A stretch of 64,000 nucleotides of DNA, from assembly GCF_024704835.1 (NCBI RefSeq), contig NZ_JAMXBE010000003.1, positions 310,001 through 374,000 on the forward strand, in the 5' to 3' direction. This stretch comes from Parapedobacter tibetensis (lineage in GTDB: Bacteria > Bacteroidota > Bacteroidia > Sphingobacteriales > Sphingobacteriaceae). Position numbers and translations under genes: made by a program. The first letter of the stretch is position 1; every line of letters starts with the position of its first letter. The notes beneath the pieces are model-generated. The model was not told the origin of the DNA, searched no databases, and was given only the letters and a program-made list of their open reading frames with translations. Below, piece by piece: positions 16,042 through 34,825 of this stretch.

Positions 16042-17085
16042 ATGGAAATCACAGTCGAATATAAAACCTGGATTGCCGAAGTCAAAACGAAAGTTCGATC
16101 GTCGCAGATTAAAGCTGCGTTGGCTGTCAATTCAGAATTGATAGGTTTCTATTGGGAGTTAGGGCGGATGATTACTGAAATGCAAGCCCGGTTTCAGTGG
16201 GGAGATAAGGTTATAGACCGAGCGTCTAACGATTTGAAAGAAGAATTTCCAGATATGAATGGCTTGTCCCCGCGCAACCTAAAATACTGTAGGCAATTTT
16301 ATCAATTTTATCATACGTCAATTGGGCAACAGGTTGTTGCCCAATTGTCCAACAACCTGTTGGATAAGACTCCATGGGGGCATAACATATTGATATTCAG
16401 CAAATCAAAAGATGTTGAGGAAGCTCGATTCTATTTACAACAGACGATAGAAAACAATTGGAGTAGGGATACGCTGGCATTGCAACTGAAGTCTAATTTG
16501 TACGAGCGAAATGGGAAGGCTATCACGAATTTCAAGTATACGCTACCCGAACCGGTATCCGATCTGGCCCAGCAGACCTTGAAAGATCCGTATGTGTTCG
16601 ATTTCATTACGATGGCTAAGTCCTATAAAGAAAGAGACATCGAAAACCAGCTTATCCAACACATCACAAAGTTCTTGTTGGAACTTGGCAAAGGTTTCGC
16701 GTTCATAGGGCGGCAGTACCATTTGGTCGTCGGTGAGAATGACTACTACCTCGACCTGTTGTTTTATCATACTAGGCTTAAATGCTATACAGTGGTGGAA
16801 ATTAAAAATACGGCCTTCATCCCCGAGTATGCGGGTAAGTTGAATTTTTATCTTTCGGCTGTGGATAGCCTAGTCAAGCTTCCGGACGACAATCCGACCA
16901 TCGGCATCTTACTGTGCCGTGACAAGAATAATATCGAAGCCGAATTTGCACTTCGCGATATCAATAAGCCGATGGGAGTGAGTGAGTTTCAACTCGCCGA
17001 AGTGCTCCCTGATAATTTGAAGTCTAGCTTACCTAGCGTTGAGGAACTGGAAGAACAGTTAAAAAAAATGGATGAAGAGGAATAA
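16042..17085 (+). CDS. DUF1016 (YhcG-type) PDDEXK nuclease-domain protein, 347 aa
   Basis: The N-terminal DUF1016 domain (about 5-150) has VNSELIGFYWELGRMITEMQ, GWGDK-like QWGDKVIDRASNDLKEEFP and GLSPRNLKYCRQFYQFY. The C-terminal YhcG nuclease domain has DYYLDLLFYHTRLKCYTVVE followed by IKNTAFIPEYAGKLNFYLSA; the catalytic pattern is D-L-L-F-Y-H and E-I-K. The family is widespread in mobile DNA, and its biological role is poorly known. The linker region holds an unusual 12-bp inverted repeat (16319-16347). Two remnants of the same family lie at 17110 and 35957. Confidence 0.92.
   Translation: MEITVEYKTWIAEVKTKVRSSQIKAALAVNSELIGFYWELGRMITEMQARFQWGDKVIDRASNDLKEEFPDMNGLSPRNLKYCRQFYQFYHTSIGQQVVAQLSNNLLDKTPWGHNILIFSKSKDVEEARFYLQQTIENNWSRDTLALQLKSNLYERNGKAITNFKYTLPEPVSDLAQQTLKDPYVFDFITMAKSYKERDIENQLIQHITKFLLELGKGFAFIGRQYHLVVGENDYYLDLLFYHTRLKCYTVVEIKNTAFIPEYAGKLNFYLSAVDSLVKLPDDNPTIGILLCRDKNNIEAEFALRDINKPMGVSEFQLAEVLPDNLKSSLPSVEELEEQLKKMDEEE
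16319..16347. repeat. Perfect inverted repeat inside the DUF1016 gene
   Basis: CAATTGGGCAAC, a 5-nt loop and GTTGCCCAATTG form a perfect hairpin. A second overlapping inversion (ACAGGTTGTT with AACAACCTGT) extends to about 16360. The encoded residues (IGQQVVAQLSNNLLDKT) lie before the conserved PWGHNI motif, a variable linker in this family. Confidence 0.7.
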
Positions 17086-19304: not shown

Positions 19305-19435
19305 GTTTATGATCATAGCGGATATTCGATGAAATAATGGTGAATGGGACACATCACATTCAAGGTTATTAAATGACCCGTCAAACGGCAGGCGCTTTGT
19401 AGGATACGGGTAGGTCAATTACAAATCACTTTGAC

Positions 19436-19443
19436 TATATTTG
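19436..19443 (+). promoter_or_regulatory. -7 promoter element of the methyltransferase operon
   Basis: TATATTTG fits the Bacteroidota -7 consensus TAnnTTTG. No matching -33 TTTG was found at 19-20 bp. The position, 17 bp before ATG 19461, supports that ATG as the real start rather than the earlier in-frame TTG. Confidence 0.45.
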
Positions 19444-19460
19444 AAGATAAATTTACAGAA

Positions 19461-20369
19461 ATGTCAAAATACAAATACATATTAGGAGATTCGTTAAAAG
19501 CCATTAAGAAATTTAAAGACAACACATTCAAACTTATTATAACATCCCCTCCTTATAATGTTGGAAAAGAATATGAAACAAAAAAATCAATTGAATTATA
19601 TCTTGAAGAACAAAATGAAATAATTAAAGAATTAGTAAGGGTTTTACACACTAATGGCAGCATTTGTTGGCAAGTAGGAAATTTCGTAGATGACAAAGAA
19701 ATATTTCCTTTGGATATCTTCTATTATCAAATTTTTAAGGATAATGGTCTAAAACTAAGAAATAGAATAGTATGGCAATTTGGCCACGGCTTGCATTCTT
19801 CTAAAAGATTTTCAGGACGATACGAAACTATTTTATGGTTTACCAAAACTGAAGATTATACTTTCAATTTGGATTCAGTTCGCATACCTTCAAAATATCC
19901 AGGGAAAAGGCACCATAAAGGCCCAAAAAAAGGACAATATTCTAGTAATCCCAAAGGAAAAAACCCTTCTGATATATGGGAGGTATTATTGAACGACTGG
20001 GAAAAGGAGATATGGAATATTCCTAATGTGAAGTCTAACCACGTAGAAAAGACAGAACATCCTTGCCAATATCCTATTGAACTTGTTGAAAGATGTGTAT
20101 TGGCGTTAACAAATGAAAACGACTGGATTCTTGATCCTTTTGCGGGTGTCGGTTCCACAGTATTGGCAAGCTTGAAAAATGACAGGAATGTAATTGGGAT
20201 AGAAAAAGTCAAAAAATACAGAGACATTGGTGTAAAGCGCGTTAAAGAATTTGATGATGGTTCTCTACGATTTAGGTCTATTGGAACGCCAATTTATGAT
20301 CATACAAAATCCAAACTTTCTCAAATTCCGCTTGAGTTTAATAATAATGAAAGTCTGCGATCAATATAG
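19461..20369 (+). CDS. Site-specific DNA methyltransferase, beta-class amino-methyltransferase, 302 aa
   Basis: The catalytic motif IV, TSPPYNVGKEYE, is near residue 27. The S-adenosylmethionine-binding motif, DPFAGVGSTVLAS, is near residue 225. The order (catalytic motif, target-recognition region, then SAM motif) is that of beta-class N4-cytosine/N6-adenine methyltransferases, and the SPPY form favours N4-cytosine. It should methylate a short DNA site. The ATG at 19461 follows a -7 box. Its 3' end overlaps the next gene by 23 bp. Codon use and base composition are visibly more AT-rich than the flanks, indicating transfer. Confidence 0.9.
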   Translation: MSKYKYILGDSLKAIKKFKDNTFKLIITSPPYNVGKEYETKKSIELYLEEQNEIIKELVRVLHTNGSICWQVGNFVDDKEIFPLDIFYYQIFKDNGLKLRNRIVWQFGHGLHSSKRFSGRYETILWFTKTEDYTFNLDSVRIPSKYPGKRHHKGPKKGQYSSNPKGKNPSDIWEVLLNDWEKEIWNIPNVKSNHVEKTEHPCQYPIELVERCVLALTNENDWILDPFAGVGSTVLASLKNDRNVIGIEKVKKYRDIGVKRVKEFDDGSLRFRSIGTPIYDHTKSKLSQIPLEFNNNESLRSI

Positions 20370-20811
20370 TCATCAAAAGGGCTTAGAAACAATTCAGGCC
20401 AAAGGAAACCTATTGCATGAACTAATTAATATACTAACGTACAAAGGTTTATATTTCGGAAAGAATTTTTCAAAGGAAATAAAATCTAAGGTAAGCGAAA
20501 GATTTAATCAAAACGGATGGGCGGATAACGTGAAAGTAGGGAATTCAAATTTAACTATTAATTTTATGAAATCCAAAGTAGGTGTGTGCTTTCAAATCGG
20601 CAATGTTGCTCGAACTTATGCTGATATTTTGAAACTAAGTCTACTTAATAAAAATGGAATAATCGATGTTGGAATAATTATAGTTCCTCATAAACTTGAA
20701 TCGAAAATGATGGGCGCAAATTATGCTCAATTTGATCGCTTGGCAAAAGAACTTTATCAGTTTACTGATATTGTTCCCGTACCTATATTAATTTTTGGTT
20801 TATCAAACTAA
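20347..20811 (+). CDS. BglII/BstYI-like type II restriction endonuclease homolog with substituted active-site residues, 154 aa
   Basis: The start ATG at 20347 gives MKVCDQYSHQKGLETIQAKG, matching the opening of BglII-family enzymes (x-x-Y-S-H-x-x-G-x-E). The core INFMKSKVGVCFQIGNVART, then YADILKLSLLNKNGIIDVGI and IVP, aligns with the family motif in which D-x8-E-x-Q forms the catalytic site. Here the D position is Asn (20560-20562) and the E position is Cys (20587-20589), while Gln is kept. It is also shorter than BglII (about 220 aa). It overlaps the methyltransferase gene, as restriction partners often do. It may be inactive or have a changed role. Confidence 0.7.
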   Translation: MKVCDQYSHQKGLETIQAKGNLLHELINILTYKGLYFGKNFSKEIKSKVSERFNQNGWADNVKVGNSNLTINFMKSKVGVCFQIGNVARTYADILKLSLLNKNGIIDVGIIIVPHKLESKMMGANYAQFDRLAKELYQFTDIVPVPILIFGLSN

Positions 20812-20816
20812 ACAAT

Positions 20817-22085
20817 ATGAAGCCCAGAGCAGAACGTATTGAATATATCCGTAGAGTGACCAAGGTCGCAGAAGAAGATAATTCTAATAAAAATTATTAT
20901 GCTATAAAAAGCTGGAGAGATAAACCTCTACATCGAAAGATCGTGCACATCGATTCGGAATATTTAATGTTTCGAATTGAAAACTCACGCACAGAAATTC
21001 AACAATTAGCATATATCCGTAAAAATTCTTTAGGCAAAGAATTTTTTAATGACCCAGAATCTCCCGTTGTTCAGCAAACTCAACAGGAAATTTTGACAGA
21101 AATGGTAAAAGGAAAAGGTAGAGATTTATTGGATGATTTAAAAACCCGTAGACAGGAAGACCCTTGTATTATTACTTATGATGGATATATTGTAAATGGC
21201 AATAGAAGAACGGCTGGGCTAAAACATCTAGGAGTGAGGTATATAGATTGTGTCGTACTACCAGAAGATGCTTCTCCAAAAGACATTTATCTGTTAGAGC
21301 AGCTTTTGCAAATAGCTCAAGACTTTAGAGAAGATTATCATTGGATTAATGAACTGAGAAATATTAGAAAGGGAAAGGAAGATTCGCGACTAGAATTGAC
21401 AGATAAAGAATTAGCCGAAAACCTAAGATTAAGTACTCAGGAGCTTAAAATAAAGCTGCGTATGATAGACTTAATTGATGCTTTCTTAATATGGAGAAAC
21501 TTCCCAGGAGAGTATGATTATTCAAAGCTCGACGATACGGAAGAAATTTTCAGGCAATTAGAGAAAAGCAGTAGACTATATATAAAAGATAATATTAAAC
21601 AGGAAGCTTTGCGTAATGCAATATTTACAATAATTGAAGAGCGTCCCTCTAAGGGACGTTTATATGGTTACGTTATCGATCTCATTAGAACATTCGATCA
21701 GGTTTACGAAAAAATGCTACAAACGGTGTCTACGGACCCTCCTAATCATGAAGAAACAAAAGAATCCAATCCTAACGCAGAAGAACTTCTTGATAATCTG
21801 ATCGATAACGATCAAGGTTCAACAAACTTTTCATTTGATAGTCAGGAAAATGTATTAGAAAATTCAAGCAAAATAATCGAAGCAATTCTTGACGTTAAAG
21901 AAGTAAATAAAGAGAGAAAAGACGCCGAAGCTGTATATGAATCCGTTAGCGCAGCATTAAGAGAGCTCCAAGGGCTTGTCATTGATAACGACACTGCTAA
22001 GCTTGGAAGTGTCAGAAATAAACTTGAGCAAATTATTACAAATGCTGAGAGACTGCTGAGAGAGCTAAAGGAATATGATGAGTAA
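20817..22085 (+). CDS. ParB-like protein, 422 aa
   Basis: The N-terminal part contains KIVHIDSEYLMFRIENSRTE and then YDGYIVNGNRRTAGLKHLGV (near residue 121). The NGNRR box is the ParB/Srx-type nucleotide-binding signature. The middle (ELTDKELAENLRLSTQELKI) is a helix-turn-helix-like segment, and the tail (about 320-422) is acidic and coiled-coil-like. Proteins with this fold occur in DNA-modification systems as well as in partition. It starts 5 bp after the endonuclease-like gene and overlaps the helicase gene by 11 bp. Confidence 0.72.
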   Translation: MKPRAERIEYIRRVTKVAEEDNSNKNYYAIKSWRDKPLHRKIVHIDSEYLMFRIENSRTEIQQLAYIRKNSLGKEFFNDPESPVVQQTQQEILTEMVKGKGRDLLDDLKTRRQEDPCIITYDGYIVNGNRRTAGLKHLGVRYIDCVVLPEDASPKDIYLLEQLLQIAQDFREDYHWINELRNIRKGKEDSRLELTDKELAENLRLSTQELKIKLRMIDLIDAFLIWRNFPGEYDYSKLDDTEEIFRQLEKSSRLYIKDNIKQEALRNAIFTIIEERPSKGRLYGYVIDLIRTFDQVYEKMLQTVSTDPPNHEETKESNPNAEELLDNLIDNDQGSTNFSFDSQENVLENSSKIIEAILDVKEVNKERKDAEAVYESVSAALRELQGLVIDNDTAKLGSVRNKLEQIITNAERLLRELKEYDE

Positions 22086-23952
22086 TATTTTGGAAATTTC
22101 AGTCGATCGCCGATCGTTGGTCGCTACACTATATCTTACCAATAAAGACGAACGCGTTTTTAATGAACTGAAAATAATCTGTTCCTCTATTTCCGATAAC
22201 TATTCTTATAGTGATCTTGTTTTTAAGTTACCATGGTTTGAATTAAAAAGAGGATTAACAAGTATTGCGCACGTAAGAAAAAAATATAAGCTAGACATAA
22301 AATATGATGCTTTTGCCAAAAGGCTAGTCGAAGAAACAGTAAATGACCGTAAGAGTATAAAGGAAAAAAAATCCGCTGTTGATATCAATGAAGATATCTT
22401 AAACCAAATTCTTAAAAAAAACAATTTTAATAGAAAACTAAAAGCTGAACAAAAGAGGGATGTATTACACCTTCTAAGATTAAAACACGGAGCAAATTTC
22501 TCCGTTCCGGGTGCTGGCAAGACAACAACAATACTCGCGACCCATACAGTTTTAAAACAGCTTGGAATTGTGTCAAAACTATTTGTAATAGCTCCAATAA
22601 ATGCTTTTATTTCTTGGCAAGACGAAGTAGATGAAATATTTGGAAAAGGCGCCTTGATAATTAAACGCTTACAGCGAAATCACACTGAGAACTTTTCCCT
22701 AATAGAGCAATCTGATCTAGATATTATTCTAGTGAATTACGAGAAGTTAAGAAAAGACGTAAGCCAGCTTATTCCATTTTTTATTAACAATAAAGTGCAT
22801 CTAATACTTGATGAATCGCATCGAATTAAAAGCGGAACGAACAATATTAGCTACGGTCAGATTATTAAGCTGGCAGATTTGGCAAAGCGAAGGGATATTC
22901 TTTCGGGAACCCCTATGCCTCAGAGTTACACGGACTTGGAACCACAATTTGACTTTTTATGGCCCGGAGAAAATATAATACCGGAACATACGAGGTCGAA
23001 AGATGAAGATATATTACCCAAAGTCAATCAAGCAATCAATGGTCTTTTTGTAAGAACAACGAAGAACGAATTGGGGTTGGAAGATCCAATAATCGATTAT
23101 ACGTTAATTCCTATGGGGAAAATACAGGCGGAATTGTATCGATTATTTAAATCAGAAGCGGCAAGGGTAATTTCAGGAATGGATAAACCTTCAATTTACA
23201 ATTTCAGAAGAATAGGAAGAAGCGTTGTAAAGCTACTTCAAGCAGCAACAAACCCAATACTATTGACAGCTAAAGATGAATACGGAGAAGAAACGTTGTC
23301 AGTGCCTCAAAACAGAGAATTTTGGGAACTATTGGAAGACTTTCAGAAATACGAGAAACCAGTTAAAATTGAATATATTAAGATACGTGTAAAAAAAATC
23401 ATAGAAGAGAATCCAACAAATAAAATTTTGATTTGGTCATACTTTGTTCGTAATATCTTAATTCTTAAAAAATTACTCAAAGAGTATAATCCCGTCGTGA
23501 TTTATGGAGAGGTGCCATCAGGATCAGAGGAGGATGAAAAAACGAGGGAATATCAAATTCGAGAGTTTCATGAAAATCCAGAATGTAAAGTAATGATTGC
23601 CAATCCACAAGCATGTGGCGAGGGTATTAGTTTGCATAAAGTCTGTCATTATGCAATTTATCTTGATAGAAATTTTAATGCTGCGTTTTTTTTGCAATCA
23701 ATCGATAGAATACATCGGCTTGGCCTAGAAAAAGGGATAGTAACCAAAATTGAAATACTTATAACTGAAAACACAATTGATGAAGTCTTAATTGATAGGC
23801 TAAACGACAAAATTAAAGCCATGGGTAATGTGCTTGAAGATCCATATTTAAGCTCTTTAGCTTATGATCCTGCTGACATTTCAATCGAAGATGAAGTTGG
23901 TATAGATAGTGTGGATTTTGAGGTTATTAAGAAGCACATTATTCACGAATGA
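22075..23952 (+). CDS. SNF2-type helicase/translocase, 625 aa
   Basis: It has a Walker A-like motif NFSVPGAGKTTTILA near residue 145, motif II LILDESHRIKSG near 245, motif III LSGTPMPQSYTDLE, and the C-terminal helicase domain with FFLQSIDRIHRLGLEKG near 540. The motifs are those of SNF2 family double-stranded DNA translocases. The N-terminal 130 residues (LEISVDRRSLVATLYLTNKD) are specific and unknown. It is coupled by overlaps to both neighbours (11 bp and 4 bp), so it works with the ParB-like and DUF3883-like proteins. Confidence 0.88.
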   Translation: MMSNILEISVDRRSLVATLYLTNKDERVFNELKIICSSISDNYSYSDLVFKLPWFELKRGLTSIAHVRKKYKLDIKYDAFAKRLVEETVNDRKSIKEKKSAVDINEDILNQILKKNNFNRKLKAEQKRDVLHLLRLKHGANFSVPGAGKTTTILATHTVLKQLGIVSKLFVIAPINAFISWQDEVDEIFGKGALIIKRLQRNHTENFSLIEQSDLDIILVNYEKLRKDVSQLIPFFINNKVHLILDESHRIKSGTNNISYGQIIKLADLAKRRDILSGTPMPQSYTDLEPQFDFLWPGENIIPEHTRSKDEDILPKVNQAINGLFVRTTKNELGLEDPIIDYTLIPMGKIQAELYRLFKSEAARVISGMDKPSIYNFRRIGRSVVKLLQAATNPILLTAKDEYGEETLSVPQNREFWELLEDFQKYEKPVKIEYIKIRVKKIIEENPTNKILIWSYFVRNILILKKLLKEYNPVVIYGEVPSGSEEDEKTREYQIREFHENPECKVMIANPQACGEGISLHKVCHYAIYLDRNFNAAFFLQSIDRIHRLGLEKGIVTKIEILITENTIDEVLIDRLNDKIKAMGNVLEDPYLSSLAYDPADISIEDEVGIDSVDFEVIKKHIIHE

Positions 23953-24917
23953 AGAAAAAAATCAAATACTACTCTATATCATATGGTCATTTAGTGGCTT
24001 GTTGGCATATCGTTTATTTGACAAATGAACATAGGGGAATGACCCCTAAAGACGCAATAAATATTGTAGAGAAATCTGGGAAGCTTGGCGGAACAGTTCC
24101 TGCAAAAGCTGGTCTTAAGATATGTTTAGATTATGGCTTTCTTACTGTTCATTCCTCTCAATTATATATTACAGATATTACAACAACATCATTATTGCCC
24201 GAATGTAATCAAGAGGACATAAATATATCGGCACTTAGAAAAGTTTTATTACACATCTTATCATATCACAATTTTGAATGGCTGATTTTTTATGACTCAG
24301 ACCCGGAGATTTTTAGGGAATCCTTAATTGCCAATGATCCAGAGTGGGTTAATTTATTGGACAATGCTTTTCTCTTTGACTTTGAAAAAGAAGAGGTAAA
24401 CATCTGGTGGGATAATATATTGTCAAAATATGAAGATTATAAGGAAGAGCTAAAGAAGGCAATTGGAGACGTAGGAGAAAAGATAACTTACCGATATGAA
24501 TTGGATAGGATAACTAATGATGGATTTACACCAGCCAGATCATTTGTAAAGTGGGCGTCCCGAATAAGTGATCGATTTGGATTTGATGTCCTCTCAATTA
24601 GAGGCAAATATTTTTTATCAACGTATAGTGAGAGGGATAAAATACAAATTGAAGTGAAATCTTCCGATACGACCAATCTTGGTAGATTCCGTTTTTATAT
24701 TTCAAAACCAGAATGGAATAAGGCGTTAGAAGATGTTGAGTCTTACTTTTTTTTCTGTTGGGCAGGTATTAATCTGGAAACAGAATCAGCCGAGTATGGG
24801 CCGTTTATTATTCCTGCCACCGAACTTGTTGAACATATGCCAACCGATAATAGTGATATGTTACAATGGTCTGAGTGTCGTTGTGTAATGGATGTTTCGA
24901 AATATCAAATGATTTAA
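23949..24917 (+). CDS. DUF3883-like protein, putative PD-(D/E)xK nuclease, 322 aa
   Basis: The C-terminal domain has RISDRFGFDVLSIRGKYFLS, then IQIEVKSSD (near residue 232), then FYISKPEWNKALEDVESYFF. This is the DUF3883 (NO VEIN C-terminal) pattern, whose x-D-V...E-V-K residues fit a PD-(D/E)xK nuclease site. The N-terminus SYGHLVACWHIVYLTNEHRG is a winged-helix-like region. It is the last gene of the five-gene unit and overlaps the helicase by 4 bp. I infer it to be the effector or DNA-cutting partner. Confidence 0.7.
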   Translation: MKKKIKYYSISYGHLVACWHIVYLTNEHRGMTPKDAINIVEKSGKLGGTVPAKAGLKICLDYGFLTVHSSQLYITDITTTSLLPECNQEDINISALRKVLLHILSYHNFEWLIFYDSDPEIFRESLIANDPEWVNLLDNAFLFDFEKEEVNIWWDNILSKYEDYKEELKKAIGDVGEKITYRYELDRITNDGFTPARSFVKWASRISDRFGFDVLSIRGKYFLSTYSERDKIQIEVKSSDTTNLGRFRFYISKPEWNKALEDVESYFFFCWAGINLETESAEYGPFIIPATELVEHMPTDNSDMLQWSECRCVMDVSKYQMI

Positions 24918-25321: not shown

Positions 25322-26281
25322 TTATGCCTTAAAAATATGTTCGCGGTGCCAATTCAGTTTATCGAGCTGAGGAAAGTATCTGGTTGACTGAGGCCCATTA
25401 ATTCTCCTGCCCTTTAGTTTTCGTATACTGTATTCGTGGGTTTCATCCTCCGTGAAATGCGGCGATACGATAATCCGGTAATCTTTATCTATACTGAGCA
25501 AGCCGCGGTCAAACGCACGGTGCATATTGGGACATAACGCGATACCGTTGCCGATCCTGTCATCATGGCTCACGCTGAACGGTACGATATGGCAGGCATC
25601 CACAAAACTATGGCCATGCCGTGATACCAAACACATGCCGGTAAAGGCACAGGTGCTTTGGTAAAGCTGAATGATATGTCGTTTGAAAAGCCCGTTGCGT
25701 ACAAAGACTTCTTCTTCGGTATCAATGTGGACGGTTTTGTATTTGGACTCAGGCTCTTGGAGAATATAAGCCTCTACTTCGTGTAAGTAACCCTCACCAC
25801 TGTGCTTGGCTGCAAGGAAGTAAGCTTTGCGATCGGGGAAATAGGTGCCCAGTAGGGCAGTCTGCAAGACCGTACGGCTCACCGAATCTTGGATAAGTGC
25901 AAAGAGGTCTACACGTAATTCCCCATGATCTAGTACCTCGGCCAGCGTATTTACGCTTTTGATGTGCGCATTGATCGTGCAGCCTGGCTTTGGGACTAAG
26001 TACCAAAAAGGCGCACCATTAGCCTTATCGCTTTGCAAATAATAGAATGGTTGCGTGAAATCCGCTTGGTGCGGTGTGGCGACGAGCAGTTGCCAATTTT
26101 CCAGAAAATGCCCTACTAGATCGGCATTGGCCTCGAAGCGATTATTCGTAACTATACCTTTCTCCACCAATTCCATTAAGGTAAGTACCAACATGGGTTT
26201 GTGAGGTGCGATGCCGTACCTCGTACCGCCTCGTTTGAGGTGGGTGAGGGCATGGAGGTAGGTTTGGAGTGTGTGTGGCAT
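25322..26281 (-). CDS. HNH endonuclease, 319 aa
   Basis: The C-terminal half has STCAFTGMCLVSRHGHSFVD, then ACHIVPFSVSHDDRIGNGIA, then LCPNMHRAFDRGLLSID, an HNH (H-x2-P ... N-G-x2-L-C-x3-H-x2-F-D) site. The N-terminus HLKRGGTRYGIAPHKPMLVL is the usual recognition part of such restriction-type enzymes. It is likely a stand-alone or modification-dependent restriction nuclease. A decayed copy of its 3' end lies at 31272-31400. Confidence 0.9.
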   Translation of the reverse strand: MPHTLQTYLHALTHLKRGGTRYGIAPHKPMLVLTLMELVEKGIVTNNRFEANADLVGHFLENWQLLVATPHQADFTQPFYYLQSDKANGAPFWYLVPKPGCTINAHIKSVNTLAEVLDHGELRVDLFALIQDSVSRTVLQTALLGTYFPDRKAYFLAAKHSGEGYLHEVEAYILQEPESKYKTVHIDTEEEVFVRNGLFKRHIIQLYQSTCAFTGMCLVSRHGHSFVDACHIVPFSVSHDDRIGNGIALCPNMHRAFDRGLLSIDKDYRIIVSPHFTEDETHEYSIRKLKGRRINGPQSTRYFPQLDKLNWHREHIFKA

Positions 26282-29883: not shown

Positions 29884-30717
29884 ATGGCAAAAAACACGAA
29901 ATTAGAGGTAAAGGGAACGGAGATAACCATCTTTCAAGAGAATACCAGTGATTTTATATCCTTGACGGATATTGCAAGACACCGTGATTCTGAACGTAGT
30001 GATTACATTCTGCAGAACTGGATGAGGAACCGGAGCACCATTGAATTCATTGGTCTCTGGGAACAATTTAATAATCCCGCTTTTAATTCCATCGAATTCG
30101 ATGGAATTAAAAATCAGTCGGGATCAAACAGTTTTTCTCTTACCCCGAAAAGATGGATTGAAACAACTAACGCTATCGGTATTCTCTCAAGGACTGGAAG
30201 ATACGGCGGCACATTTGCACACAAGGATATTGCTTTCGAGTTTGCTACTTGGTTAAGTGCAGAGTTCAAGTTTTATTTGATTAAGGAATTCCAACGGTTG
30301 AAGGAAGAGGAAAGCAACAGGCTTAAATCTAACTGGGATTTCCAGCGCACACTTGCCAAGGTAAACTACCACATCCATACGGATGCCATCAAGGAAAACC
30401 TGATTCCCGAGACATTGTCAAAAGCTCAGGTTTCTTTCGTGTATGCGAATGAAGCTGATGTGCTAAATATGGCATTGTTTGGAAAGACAGCCAAGCAATG
30501 GCGCGATGAGAATCCGAACAAGAAGGGCAACGTTCGGGACTATGCGTCTATCGAGCAACTGGTGGTATTGTCAAACATGGAAAGTACGAATGCGTTGCTT
30601 ATTCACCAAGGACTGGCCCAATCAGAGCGATTGGTCCAGCTGAACCGAATGGCAATCATACAATTGCGTTCATTGGTGGTGCATAGCAAATCGGTGGGAA
30701 AACTGAAGAATAGCTAG
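29884..30717 (+). CDS. KilA-N domain protein, 277 aa
   Basis: The N-terminus VKGTEITIFQENTSDFISLT, the middle DYILQNWMRNRSTIEFIGLW and GRYGGTFAHKDIAFEFATWL (near residue 107) form the KilA-N DNA-binding domain of phages and mobile DNA. A helical C-terminal part includes FGKTAKQWRDENPNKKGNVR. The role is unknown; such genes occur as single mobile or antirepressor-like genes in Bacteroidota. The next gene starts 5 bp after its stop. Confidence 0.9.
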   Translation: MAKNTKLEVKGTEITIFQENTSDFISLTDIARHRDSERSDYILQNWMRNRSTIEFIGLWEQFNNPAFNSIEFDGIKNQSGSNSFSLTPKRWIETTNAIGILSRTGRYGGTFAHKDIAFEFATWLSAEFKFYLIKEFQRLKEEESNRLKSNWDFQRTLAKVNYHIHTDAIKENLIPETLSKAQVSFVYANEADVLNMALFGKTAKQWRDENPNKKGNVRDYASIEQLVVLSNMESTNALLIHQGLAQSERLVQLNRMAIIQLRSLVVHSKSVGKLKNS

Positions 30718-31418: not shown

Positions 31419-32615
31419 CTATACCAACAAGTCATAAGATAGACTTGGCGGAAATAATAAGCTGAGCGCTCTTGGATGGATTTTAAAGAGCGGTCCGTGT
31501 TCTTTTACTTTACCATCATCATGACGAGAGATAAGATGGTCGAGCGTTATTAACCCCTGCTCAAGCAAAATGTCAAATTGTGAGGTGATAGGTTTGCGTG
31601 TATGTGCTGCATTCTTATAATGGAGATATTCCTGTCCATTTTCATGGATGGAATCCGCCGCAATCCAGAAAGTTTCGTTGTGTTTACTAAGAAGGGTCTG
31701 GTGTAGGGAGTCTATTGCCCAAGTGGCAAAATCTCCGATTTCTGCGCGCGCCGAGTTTTCAACCAAGCGCCCCAAGGATCCATTGAGTTTCAATTGCAGG
31801 CCCTGTGAATTGCACCCTAATGTGCTGACAGTACAATTGAGCCTAAATTTACCGTTTCGCATATAACCGAATGCATCCAGTATCTGCGCTGAGCTTTTGA
31901 ATTTGCTGAACTGCCAATCTGGTACTTGGGCAAATAGTGTCTTACGATTGTTTGTTTTTTTGGCTCCTTTAGTGGCCCTAAAGGATTTAAGCTCGATACC
32001 TTTGTAATCTGGAGCACGACGTGAATTGATGGGGATGTCCAATAACGTTTCCAATGTACGGCCCACGGCAGTATCTGCTTGCAGCAATGCGGCCACAGGA
32101 CCCATGGCGGCAATACCTCTCAGGCGAAAGAGCAATTCGTTTGCTATCGCATTGGCATCCCGATTGATTTGCGATACTAATTCCTTGATGGGATTATGCA
32201 ATTCACCCTGAATCAGTTGGCGCAAATCTAATTGGGCGACGTTGATTACATACAATGTGCCTTCAAAATGGATAATCCCAAGGATATCGTTTGCCTCCAC
32301 ATACCTTTTTAAACCGGTAAACCAAATGCGCGGATCTCCCTTCTTCGTAATGGGCCGGTAGAGCGAGACGGTTGAATGGCTTTCACTAAAAGCGCCTAGC
32401 AGTTTGGCCTGTACTAGCAATTTATGCTCTTGGCCTTGCGCTTGGAGGTTGAAGTCGTGTACGCCTTGTGTTTTGAGATAAGTACGAACCGGTCCGGTTG
32501 CGTCCATAATGGATTTGGTAAGCCCTGTGGCCGTGGGCTCAATCAGCGTAAACTCAACGTTGTGTTCTGTGAGCAATTGAAGTCGGTCCAGTTCGATTTG
32601 TCTAAGCTGCCTCAT
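31419..32615 (-). CDS. MvaI/BcnI-family type II restriction endonuclease, 398 aa
   Basis: The catalytic site is visible as PDYKGIELKSFR: D203, E208 and K210 (D-x4-E-x-K). The N-terminus EFTLIEPTATGLTKSIMDAT and the middle SQILDAF-like region fit the family, whose known members cut CCWGG or CCSGG. It ends convergently near the HNH remnant and starts 2 bp after the stop of the C5-methyltransferase, so both are cotranscribed. Vsr nearby completes a modification-restriction-repair set. Confidence 0.85.
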   Translation of the reverse strand: MRQLRQIELDRLQLLTEHNVEFTLIEPTATGLTKSIMDATGPVRTYLKTQGVHDFNLQAQGQEHKLLVQAKLLGAFSESHSTVSLYRPITKKGDPRIWFTGLKRYVEANDILGIIHFEGTLYVINVAQLDLRQLIQGELHNPIKELVSQINRDANAIANELLFRLRGIAAMGPVAALLQADTAVGRTLETLLDIPINSRRAPDYKGIELKSFRATKGAKKTNNRKTLFAQVPDWQFSKFKSSAQILDAFGYMRNGKFRLNCTVSTLGCNSQGLQLKLNGSLGRLVENSARAEIGDFATWAIDSLHQTLLSKHNETFWIAADSIHENGQEYLHYKNAAHTRKPITSQFDILLEQGLITLDHLISRHDDGKVKEHGPLFKIHPRALSLLFPPSLSYDLLV

Positions 32616-32617
32616 CG

Positions 32618-34825
32618 TTAGTCGATATGTTGTAAGATCTCCATAGCCACGGCTCTGGCCAACAATGGTGGCACGGCATTGCCTACCAGGGTATATTGCG
32701 GCACCTCGGACTTGCGCTTATCGCCTCCTGTGGAGCGCTTGCCTTGGAACACGAAGGAATCGTCAAACGATTGGAGCCGAGCCATCTCGCGTACGGTAAG
32801 GGCCCGCGGTGCACGATAATGCACGTAATCATCCGGTATCGTCATCACGGTTGGGCTTTGGCCATCGGGCTTGAGTACGCTGTAATTTCGCTTATCCGAG
32901 GATAGGCCAGCTTTTTCTAATTTCTTTTGCGCCAATTTGTAATCGCCTTCTCTAAGGATAATCTTCAGGCGCTTGATGACATCCACATTCTGCTTGCTGG
33001 TCTTATGATTGTGCAGGGCATCGAATTTTTTCTCACCCCGATCAAGAGCGTGCACATCACGCACATAGAATGGGGGGGAATAGTGAAAGCGACCGTTCAA
33101 CCGCCCTTCTTTGCTCCATTGGGCATAGGTGCGGTGCTCCGCAGAAACTTTCCCATCCACATGTCGCCCCCTTAATAGCGACTGCATGTAATCTGAAGTG
33201 CCATTGTATTGCTTCTTGATATCCACCGGCTCATAATGGAAGGCTTCGGTATCATTGTCTACAAAATCCAGGTCATACAGTGCCTCGAATACGCTGACTT
33301 TTTCCGCCGCGGATACGGTGGGTGGTATGGTGGAGATGAATGCTTGGTCTTTTCGGCATCCGATAAACAATACGCGCTCACGGTTTTGGGGTACGCCATA
33401 GTCTGATGCGTTGGCTACGAATGGGGCCTCGATGCGATAGAGCCGTATGCTCTGCATGATGTACGCGAGTTGCTCTTTCTGCTTCGGGGCGCAAAATTGA
33501 CCGATGAGCCTTACGCAGTCTTCAAGCGAATAGGTGTATATGGTGAGCGCCTGCAGGATGTCATGGCAATCGCGTTGATACGTGTCTGACACGGATAGGT
33601 CTTCAAAAGCTTGCCGCACCTTGGCAATGGTTTCCTCCGCGTCCAACTGGGTGATGAATGTATTGAACCCATCTACAAAGTAATCGTTGTCTACGTTGCA
33701 TTGGTCTTTTTCCTTGATGATGGTCCTACGTAGGGTTTCGATTTCCTTGGCCCGTAGTAGCATCCGCAAGCCGTGTCGGATGGTGCTTATCCTCGTGTCT
33801 GTCTTGCTTTCTTTATAATTGCCCTGTTTGGTGGTAAATTGTTTAAACTTAGCTTCCACGGCCTTGAGATAGGTTTCTCGTTGTTCGGCGATTTTGCTAT
33901 CGTGTACCTGCTCCATGGCAATGCGCTTGGTGAGGCAATCGAGGATAAAGGAGTCGTCTTGTGCAGTTTTGCGCAATTCTTTGATGAATTGGAGCAGCTT
34001 GGGCACTTCGTTGAGGTCTACAATGGAGTTGATCTCATCGAGTATGAGTTGCCTAACCTTGCCGCCCTCCTTTGTGAGTATGCCTTTTACATTTTCCATC
34101 ACAAAGTACTTAGGCTGCAACACCTTGATGACTTCTAAATAGTGGGAGAAAAGATCATCTTTCTTGTCAAACTTGCGTCGTTTGCCGGCAAGGCTGAAGC
34201 TTTGGCAGGGTGGCCCCCCACAGATCACGTCTACCGGCTTGCCATTGAGCCGCTGGAGCAGGTTGTCTAAAAAATCTGGTTCGGTTATATCTTGCCTTAG
34301 GAAAGCTGTATCAAGGTTGAGCTGGTGATTATATCGTACCACATGCGTAAGCTCACAATTTTCATTGATATCACTGGCCAATAGAAAATCGAAGAATTTG
34401 TCATCTACTTGGGCTTGCAGGAATCCCTCGCTGAACCCTCCCGCACCGGCAAAAAGATCTACGAACGTATATGAACGCCCGTATAGGTATAGTTGGTCTC
34501 TATATATATTTACTTGGCTTTCGGCTTTATAGGCCTCCGCTATGTCATTGAGTTTTTCTTTGATTTCTTTATCAGTAAATGACTTTTTTGGCGAATTGTT
34601 GAGCAATTCCTCTGCTCGCTCTTTCAAGTGATGAAGGTAGTGGTTGATAGCGGTATGGCTTTCGCCTGAAGGCAGTACGACCTGCTTTTCCTTGTCAAAA
34701 TCATCCGCCTTGATTTTTTCACCTGTCGCGACCTTTATCTGGCGGCCGCTGCAATTGATTCGAAGGTGTATAGGGCAGTAACCCTTTTTATCTGCTTTAT
34801 CTAAGTAGTAATTGATGGTAGCCAT
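32618..34825 (-). CDS. C5-cytosine DNA methyltransferase with N-terminal arm-type DNA-binding domain, 735 aa
   Basis: The MTase core has motif I FVDLFAGAGGFSEGF (121-135), motif IV GGPPCQSFSLAG (catalytic Cys207), motif VI MENVKG (243-248), a long target-recognition insertion, and motif X YTLVGNAVPPLLA at the C-terminus. The first 100 residues (MATINYYLDKADKKGYCPIH, LRINCSGRQIKVATGEKI) look like the arm-DNA-binding domain of Bacteroidota tyrosine integrases. Two tandem 19-bp repeats lie directly before the ATG. It methylates the site cut by the adjacent MvaI/BcnI-like enzyme. Confidence 0.9.
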   Translation of the reverse strand: MATINYYLDKADKKGYCPIHLRINCSGRQIKVATGEKIKADDFDKEKQVVLPSGESHTAINHYLHHLKERAEELLNNSPKKSFTDKEIKEKLNDIAEAYKAESQVNIYRDQLYLYGRSYTFVDLFAGAGGFSEGFLQAQVDDKFFDFLLASDINENCELTHVVRYNHQLNLDTAFLRQDITEPDFLDNLLQRLNGKPVDVICGGPPCQSFSLAGKRRKFDKKDDLFSHYLEVIKVLQPKYFVMENVKGILTKEGGKVRQLILDEINSIVDLNEVPKLLQFIKELRKTAQDDSFILDCLTKRIAMEQVHDSKIAEQRETYLKAVEAKFKQFTTKQGNYKESKTDTRISTIRHGLRMLLRAKEIETLRRTIIKEKDQCNVDNDYFVDGFNTFITQLDAEETIAKVRQAFEDLSVSDTYQRDCHDILQALTIYTYSLEDCVRLIGQFCAPKQKEQLAYIMQSIRLYRIEAPFVANASDYGVPQNRERVLFIGCRKDQAFISTIPPTVSAAEKVSVFEALYDLDFVDNDTEAFHYEPVDIKKQYNGTSDYMQSLLRGRHVDGKVSAEHRTYAQWSKEGRLNGRFHYSPPFYVRDVHALDRGEKKFDALHNHKTSKQNVDVIKRLKIILREGDYKLAQKKLEKAGLSSDKRNYSVLKPDGQSPTVMTIPDDYVHYRAPRALTVREMARLQSFDDSFVFQGKRSTGGDKRKSEVPQYTLVGNAVPPLLARAVAMEILQHID

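Follow-up and report, generated by a model that had tools for sequence, protein, structure and literature searches.

The question raised by this locus is why a homologue of type II restriction enzymes should be encoded in one operon with a ParB-like protein, an SNF2-family motor and a DUF3883 protein. The five genes concerned (M, R, P, S and N) lie in the window, by which we mean the whole 64,000-nucleotide stretch of Parapedobacter tibetensis DNA that was analysed (assembly GCF_024704835.1, contig NZ_JAMXBE010000003.1, positions 310,001 to 374,000 of the forward strand), and are as follows:

19461..20369, + strand: M, beta-class DNA methyltransferase (302 aa; PF01555, 8.9e-55)
20347..20811, + strand: R, BglII/BstYI/BamHI-fold protein (154 aa; PF09195, 1e-13)
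20817..22085, + strand: P, ParB/Noc/KorB-fold protein (422 aa; AlphaFold2 model and Foldseek)
22075..23952, + strand: S, SNF2-family motor (625 aa; PF00176 (SNF2-rel_dom), 3.2e-16, and PF00271 (Helicase_C), 8.6e-08)
23949..24917, + strand: N, protein with an N-terminal part of unknown fold and a C-terminal NOV_C (DUF3883) domain (322 aa; PF13020, 5.3e-07)

The answer we favour, and which we consider probable, is that the block encodes an ATP-dependent restriction system of modular build, with a decommissioned type II enzyme, R, as its target reader. This reading draws on observed gene order, recurrence, loss of catalytic residues in R, the preservation of the active-site residues of N and of the motor motifs of S, and the pairing of R class with methyltransferase class, and on the predicted folds of R and P.

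Loss of the active site in the BglII-like protein

A preliminary description of this DNA had taken M and R for parts of a type II system, and the block does hold a methyltransferase together with a protein of a type II enzyme family (PF01555 and PF09195). However, R has no active site of its own. In alignment with BstYI, residues D119, E128 and Q130 of that enzyme correspond to N72, C81 and Q83 of R, and in alignment with BamHI, E111, E113 and N116 correspond to C81, Q83 and N86; we take these BstYI and BamHI residues to have catalytic roles. The fold itself appears to be retained, with the model of R (predicted local distance difference test score (pLDDT) of 94) matching BstYI, BamHI, BglII and OkrAI at a Foldseek probability of 1.00 and giving template modelling scores (TM-scores, by query) of 0.75–0.85 to BstYI, BamHI and BglII.

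Both catalytic acids are absent from all 12 of the BglII-like R proteins (class R11) whose genes adjoin P and S. Among unlinked PF09195 proteins from 395 genomes in which the site was covered, the aspartate is kept in 24/24 and the glutamate in 23, the remaining one having an aspartate there. These 24 controls are what is left of 27 matches after removal of two linked proteins (those of the window and of genome G251) and a truncated one (L130), and L127, which has an internal stop, entered the comparison through its open reading frame (ORF) piece alone. Neither P nor S was seen in the flanks of 25 unlinked PF09195 loci, these flanks being at most about 1.5 kb long. The R11 copies found in viral contigs (L146–L148 and L160; L154 is identical to L148) also lack the residues and stand outside the counts.

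The conservation of R across phyla argues against decay: 14 residues are invariant in 11 R sequences across phyla, and among close relatives of the window R, drawn from Bacteroidota, Ignavibacteriota and Calditrichota, identity is 50–67%. Judged by its residues, R is catalytically dead, and an ordinary type II system was rejected for the block for that reason. The modelled fold suggests that R is probably a target-recognition subunit which binds DNA instead of cutting it. The ParB-like P had been put forward earlier as the protein that reads the state of the site, but because the catalytic acids of R are gone in 12/12 cases, R is more likely to be the sequence reader than P.

Disarmed enzymes of other families upstream of P

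A scan of a genome collection with an SNF2 alignment gave at least 563 confirmed loci, and the best 80 of these, with the window and 12 loci from earlier searches, make up the sample of 93 loci to which the following frequencies refer. P adjoins S in 90/93 (it was not found in L048, L053 and L101), and a nuclease-family protein is encoded directly upstream of P in 69/93, where profiles assigned R11 to 12 loci, R5 to 22, R10 to 10 and R6 to 25, with none of these in the other 24. Classes R5 and R10 are PD-(D/E)xK types and R6 is an HNH type. The fifth family is BanI-like and occupies the slot in nine further distinct cases, namely L020, which is one of the 93, and eight viral contigs; the slot is filled in this way in a Streptococcus prophage as well as in the viral contigs.

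The linked R5, R10 and R6 proteins lack their catalytic residues without exception (57/57), and we refer to such copies as disarmed. In R5, D and E are absent from 22/22 linked proteins (two rows are identical), which retain the lysine of ExK, and D...(E/D)LK is kept in 9/9 unlinked proteins. The motif is lost in 10/10 linked R10 proteins, and PD...ExK is kept in 3/3 unlinked ones; H and N are absent from 25/25 linked R6 proteins, and both are kept in 3/3 unlinked ones, two of which are nearly identical. The linked BanI-like proteins have D changed to S and E to D in 9/9 distinct cases, and both residues are kept in 5/5 unlinked relatives.

It should be noted that the R5, R10, R6 and BanI-like families were assigned from hidden Markov model libraries and not from structures. 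R5 matched a PADLOC type II restriction-enzyme model (1.4e-18) and the BanI-like proteins matched their family at 5.4e-08, and PDB sequence searches with BanI-like, R5 and R10 proteins returned noise (TAL repeats, antibodies and the like). An unlinked R10 matched a PD-(D/E)xK model weakly (PF20472, E 0.043) and R6 matched phrog HNH families weakly (E 0.009 and up), with one relative annotated as an HNH endonuclease; the putative assignment of R10 and R6 is carried by the intact motif in their unlinked relatives.

The R5 controls go back to 18 plasmid records, of which H10 is L019 and H11–H15, H17 and H20–H22 were fetched; Kozakia L140 (two ORFs) is listed apart, and the remaining eight with L019 make nine. 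H16, H18, H19 and H23–H25 were left out, and H26 and H27 are linked loci. BanI-like controls were drawn from 296 genomes of the window's phylum (L181 and L182 are below the Pfam cut-off), and no BanI-like relatives were found in the plasmid searches. Profiles found no P, S or N in control loci L134–L144 (stretches of 3.2–7.5 kb). The unlinked R5 of L019, R10 of L033 and L045, and R6 of L092 and L093 share a locus with a linked copy, and L019 and L033 have an intact-motif copy and a disarmed copy in one locus. R6-like proteins encoded beside P in the opposite direction (L094 and L106) likewise have neither H nor N, and they stand outside the linked count; the viral R5 of L145 lacks the residues too and is outside the counts, and L156, which is identical to L155, was not counted.

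On the Kozakia plasmid (L018/L140) we observed a C5 methyltransferase, an intact-motif R5 broken into two ORFs, and a disarmed R5 with P and S.

Pairing of enzyme class and methyltransferase

The methyltransferase M has the motifs TSPPY (residues 28–32) and DPFAGVGST (225–233), and its predicted product is N4-cytosine or N6-adenine methylation. The class of R agrees with the class of the methyltransferase in R11–beta (12/12), R10–DUF1156 (10/10), R5–C5 (18/18) and R6–C5 (24/24), with four more R5 loci and one more R6 locus having no methyltransferase on the stretch. In the two classes best compared, the pairing extends to lineage. Ten of the 24 intact BglII-family enzymes adjoin a methyltransferase 58–69% identical to one of the disarmed R11 systems, and in L121, L122, L124 and L125 the methyltransferase adjoining the intact BstYI-like enzyme has the window M as its best match (58–67% identity). 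Those beside unlinked R5 all match (8/8) one of a disarmed R5 locus at 62–75% identity (481–598 bits), compared with 42–60 bits for those of R6 loci, and the only methyltransferase beside an unlinked R6, that of Rhodococcus, shares 60% identity with one from a disarmed R6 locus. On balance, the shared methyltransferase lineage and the agreement of R class with M class suggest that the disarmed enzyme reads the site protected by M, and the earlier idea that methylation marks self-DNA fits this.

In three loci, C5 methyltransferases encoded directly before P (L023 6320–8047, L025 8286–9992 and L026 5878–7593) have a C-terminal extension (about 200 aa past the Pfam match in L026) which sits where other loci have the disarmed enzyme.

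The ParB-like protein, the motor and the putative nuclease

P has a helix-turn-helix (HTH)-like region and long C-terminal helices, and its AlphaFold2 model (pLDDT 85) matches nucleotide-bound ParB, Noc and KorB at a Foldseek probability of 1.00 with TM-scores by query of only 0.17–0.34, which points to a ParB N-domain fold. Profile alignments of P are weak (HTH protein, E 0.0029; Spo0J, E 0.038), and no Pfam family was found in it up to E 1. In place of the ParB motif GERR, which we take to be nucleotide-binding, P has NGNRR (127–131). GERR was found in none of 90 P proteins and [NDS]GNRR in 42 of them, and N129 and R131 are kept in 36/36 rows of the P alignment (A6).

The motor S has a Walker A motif (PGAGKT, 145–150), DESH (246–249) and QSIDRIHR (541–548), and these three motifs were found in 86, 87 and 87, respectively, of 87 S proteins longer than 560 aa. 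The NOV_C domain of N has a PD-(D/E)xK-type motif with E177, D213, E235 and K237 intact, each of these residues being kept in 65/65 N proteins encoded downstream of S in the 93 loci; by this motif, N is probably a nuclease.

Recurrence and transfer between phyla

A search with P matched 7/395 genomes of the phylum and a P profile matched 10/296 (two weakly), the window's own genome being included in both counts. Among plasmids and phages, P–S–DUF3883 sets turned up in a Streptococcus prophage and on plasmids of Alphaproteobacteria. The order M-R-P-S-N was found again on a Paracoccus plasmid and in G251, a genome from another family of the phylum in which S is broken into two ORFs, and it recurs in other phyla, in agreement with the preliminary description, in which the genes had arrived as a unit. 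P, S and DUF3883 genes unlinked to a methyltransferase elsewhere would have spoken against that description, but this is not what was seen: a methyltransferase of one of five classes, several of them unrelated, was present in the examined stretch of 86/93 loci.

In a tree of S proteins (drawn up without rows L021, L022, L025 and L067), the rows nearest to the window are from Ignavibacteriota, Bacteroidota and Calditrichota, and the larger cluster of R11 loci, which is moderately supported, also takes in Bacillota, Pseudomonadota and Nitrospinota. This mixing of phyla in the tree indicates transfer between phyla.

Proposed mechanism

In the order of events that we infer, M would methylate a short site in the host genome and so mark self, and this site is perhaps RGATCY by kinship to BstYI systems, which recognise RGATCY. 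R, with its active site lost and its fold kept, would bind the same site when unmethylated, and bound R would load or switch P, which would act as a DNA clamp of the ParB type, perhaps gated by a nucleotide. P would bring in S, ATP-driven movement or remodelling by S would activate N, and N, as a NOV_C nuclease, would cut foreign DNA in an anti-phage or anti-plasmid function. The first and last of these steps rest on family knowledge and the middle ones on fold and gene order. P and S, often with N, would be a constant effector that takes varied pairs of methyltransferase and disarmed enzyme as its targeting module.

We put forward, as a tentative proposal only, that such loci form a distinct restriction class outside types I–IV, in which a ParB-type clamp and an SNF2 motor are the general effector and the readers come from five unrelated nuclease families, disarmed independently of one another and each accompanied by a methyltransferase class or lineage of its own. 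Immunity would in this case make use of ParB-style loading and sliding, with a restriction-enzyme fold replacing parS recognition. If this is true, a number of genes annotated as type II restriction enzymes would be address tags for an ATP-dependent machine and not nucleases, type II specificities would be a plug-in library for the P–S machine, the five families would be a natural experiment in turning a cutter into a reader, and ParB-type clamps would have a new role beyond chromosome segregation. At the genome level, the active-site state of the enzyme is predicted to tell whether P and S adjoin.

Points against a disarmed target reader, and alternative explanations

Several observations weigh against R as the target reader of a P–S effector. 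The rows compared are related and amount in effect to about five families, however many rows there are; Fisher tests, which take no account of kinship, carry no weight in the argument. There are few controls for R10 (three), R6 (three) and the BanI-like family (five, two below the Pfam cut-off), the BanI-like change of E to D is conservative, and the Rhodococcus R6 control adjoins a NaeI-family enzyme, so the HNH protein need not be the main nuclease of that system. Just 9/18 of the R5-locus methyltransferases are close (56–75%) to those of unlinked R5; nine actinobacterial ones are at 34–38% (184–226 bits, clearly higher than the roughly 46–58 bits of the R6 ones), and the beta methyltransferase is remote in R11 loci L070 and L082 (23–27% to the window M).

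The remaining points concern loci that depart from the five-gene pattern. None of the four R classes is upstream of P in 24/93 loci, although L020 among them has the BanI-like gene, and the methyltransferase classes in the remaining R-less loci include C5, D12, Eco57I, DUF1156 and beta; a disarmed enzyme is therefore not the sole route to targeting. No N turned up within 1.6 kb of S in 28/93 loci (in L025 it is further from S), and N is thus not a universal effector; 21 of these loci, all having P and S, are among the 25 of the R6 class (within L069–L105), and most of the 21 also have a Vsr-type gene and a C5 methyltransferase. In four viral contigs (L162, L163, L167 and L169), P comes directly after a type III Res-like protein of about 990 aa with an endonuclease domain (Pfam checked in L162) and is followed by S, which is interrupted in L167, and because of this P–S may be a more general helper.

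It is unlikely that R is a regulator, binding an unmethylated site within the operon that encodes it and governing expression for as long as methylation is incomplete, with P, S and N finding their targets alone. Control proteins are common in restriction-modification (R-M) operons, R keeps its fold without the catalytic residues, and P has, as a weak indication, an HTH-like region of its own, but the slot directly upstream of P is taken by nuclease-family proteins of five unrelated families (69/93 loci and the nine BanI-like cases), and a regulator would need no such regular match to methyltransferase class beside a constant P–S.

We find it quite improbable that P, S and N are a self-contained defence module which travels with R-M systems and that R is a fossil or hitchhiker. 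S is present in all 24 loci without the four R classes and P in 21 of these, and P–S is also found beside the type III Res-like genes. Against this stand the identity at which R is kept among the close relatives from three phyla, its agreement with M class wherever both were seen, the keeping of an M of the same lineage, and the intact-motif copies present in the same locus in L019 and L033.

It is very improbable that R still cuts DNA through an active site that has migrated or is unusual, which would make the block a type II system supplemented by an ATP-dependent accessory module. In favour of this, R5 retains the ExK lysine, BglII-like R the glutamine and the BanI-like protein an acid (E to D), but by alignment 12/12 BglII-like R proteins have no carboxylate at the three positions, the kind of loss differs between families, and the HNH class lacks both histidine and asparagine.

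Comparison with known systems

The block resembles the BstYI, BglII and BamHI type II systems in the predicted fold of R and in the closeness of M to methyltransferases beside intact BstYI-like enzymes, but differs from them in that R is without the catalytic acids and is followed in one operon by ParB-like, SNF2 and NOV_C genes. Type I (HsdR/M/S) and type III (Mod/Res) systems have separate reader, methyltransferase, motor and nuclease functions, as the block would, but the proposed reader of the block has a type II enzyme fold. Beyond superfamily level, no HsdS, HsdR, Mod or Res was found among the Pfam and NCBIfam matches of the five proteins. The ResIII superfamily match of S (2.7e-09) is weaker than its SNF2 match and S has no endonuclease domain, and M matched a type III methyltransferase model less well than type II models in PADLOC.

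Zorya, Dpd, DISARM and BREX are linked to the block through the motor part of S, which matches ZorD, DpdE, DrmD and BrxH profiles in PADLOC (the NCBIfam scores of S are far below the cut-offs), but no other component of these systems was matched by the other four proteins among the matches listed (25/69 for M). Membership in BREX, DISARM, Dpd and Zorya was rejected, as the similarity is at the level of the motor alone and the full signature set of none of them was found. Among the PADLOC matches listed, M was matched to methyltransferase models and R to type II enzyme models, and N was matched to PD-T4-1 and PDC-S36 via its C-terminal part. PADLOC has no model for P (no match up to E 1) and matched S solely to SNF2-type proteins of other systems, and no model covering the whole five-gene set was found in Pfam, NCBIfam or PADLOC, which upholds the earlier view that no named system has this exact set.

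The closest functional kin known to us are CglI and NgoAVII, whose components are a methyltransferase, an R protein separate from it and a helicase-like ATPase, and in which cleavage needs NTP hydrolysis (PMC5737866, PMC4267653, in the parts available). The R protein of these systems is itself the endonuclease and the motor is of the DEAD family (PMC5737866, available part); in the block, R is a disarmed BglII fold, SNF2 is the best Pfam match of the motor, and the nuclease is probably the separate NOV_C protein. No ParB-like protein is mentioned for CglI and NgoAVII in the available parts of PMC5737866 and PMC4267653, unlike the situation in the block.

DUF3883 has been named as a novel restriction endonuclease domain, and it occurs as a fusion with SNF2, next to a HEPN-AAA+ protein, in R-M operons (PMC3710099, available part). 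These operons are like the block in linking DUF3883 to SNF2 and R-M components, but they have a fused SNF2–DUF3883 with HEPN/AAA+, and the available part mentions neither a ParB–SNF2–DUF3883 trio nor disarmed type II enzymes. The five-gene set is not described in the available parts of PMC4260502, PMC12839542, PMC3459991, PMC10853773, PMC12458937, PMC10609329 and PMC6098607. A search of the open-access literature, with subscription papers mostly outside its scope, found no paper on ParB–SNF2–DUF3883 with disarmed restriction enzymes. Going by the sequences compared, what seems to be new here is the catalytic death of R beside P–S and the same swap in five unrelated enzyme families.

Organisation and surroundings of the block

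The layout of the block is largely as first described, with five co-directional genes all on the + strand, M and R overlapping by 23 bp, R and P separated by a 5-bp gap, and P and S, and S and N, overlapping by 11 bp and 4 bp, respectively. The coordinates given at the outset (19436–24917) hold overall, except that 19436 is out of frame with M. The M frame is open from a TTG at 19431, and we set the start at the ATG at 19461 because homologues begin there. The early assignment of the genes to families has held up as well, M, R, S and N being backed by Pfam and P by the match of its AlphaFold model to ParB, Noc and KorB. The block (19461–24917) was also rightly described as more AT-rich than its flanks: its GC content is 34.1% compared with 47.5% in the remaining window, and 97 overlapping stretches of the same length outside the block range from 43.0 to 53.5%.

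Because defence-like genes flank it, the block seems, from the annotation of its neighbours, to sit in a defence island. The genes noted around it are as follows:

16042-17085, + strand: YhcG/DUF1016 nuclease (PADLOC PDC-S02)
25322-26281, - strand: HNH protein related to phosphorothioate-DNA restriction enzymes (below the NCBIfam cut-off)
29884-30717, + strand: KilA-N protein (PDC-S22)
31419-32615, - strand: MvaI/BcnI-family restriction enzyme (1.4e-63), adjoining a 735-aa ORF at 32618-34825

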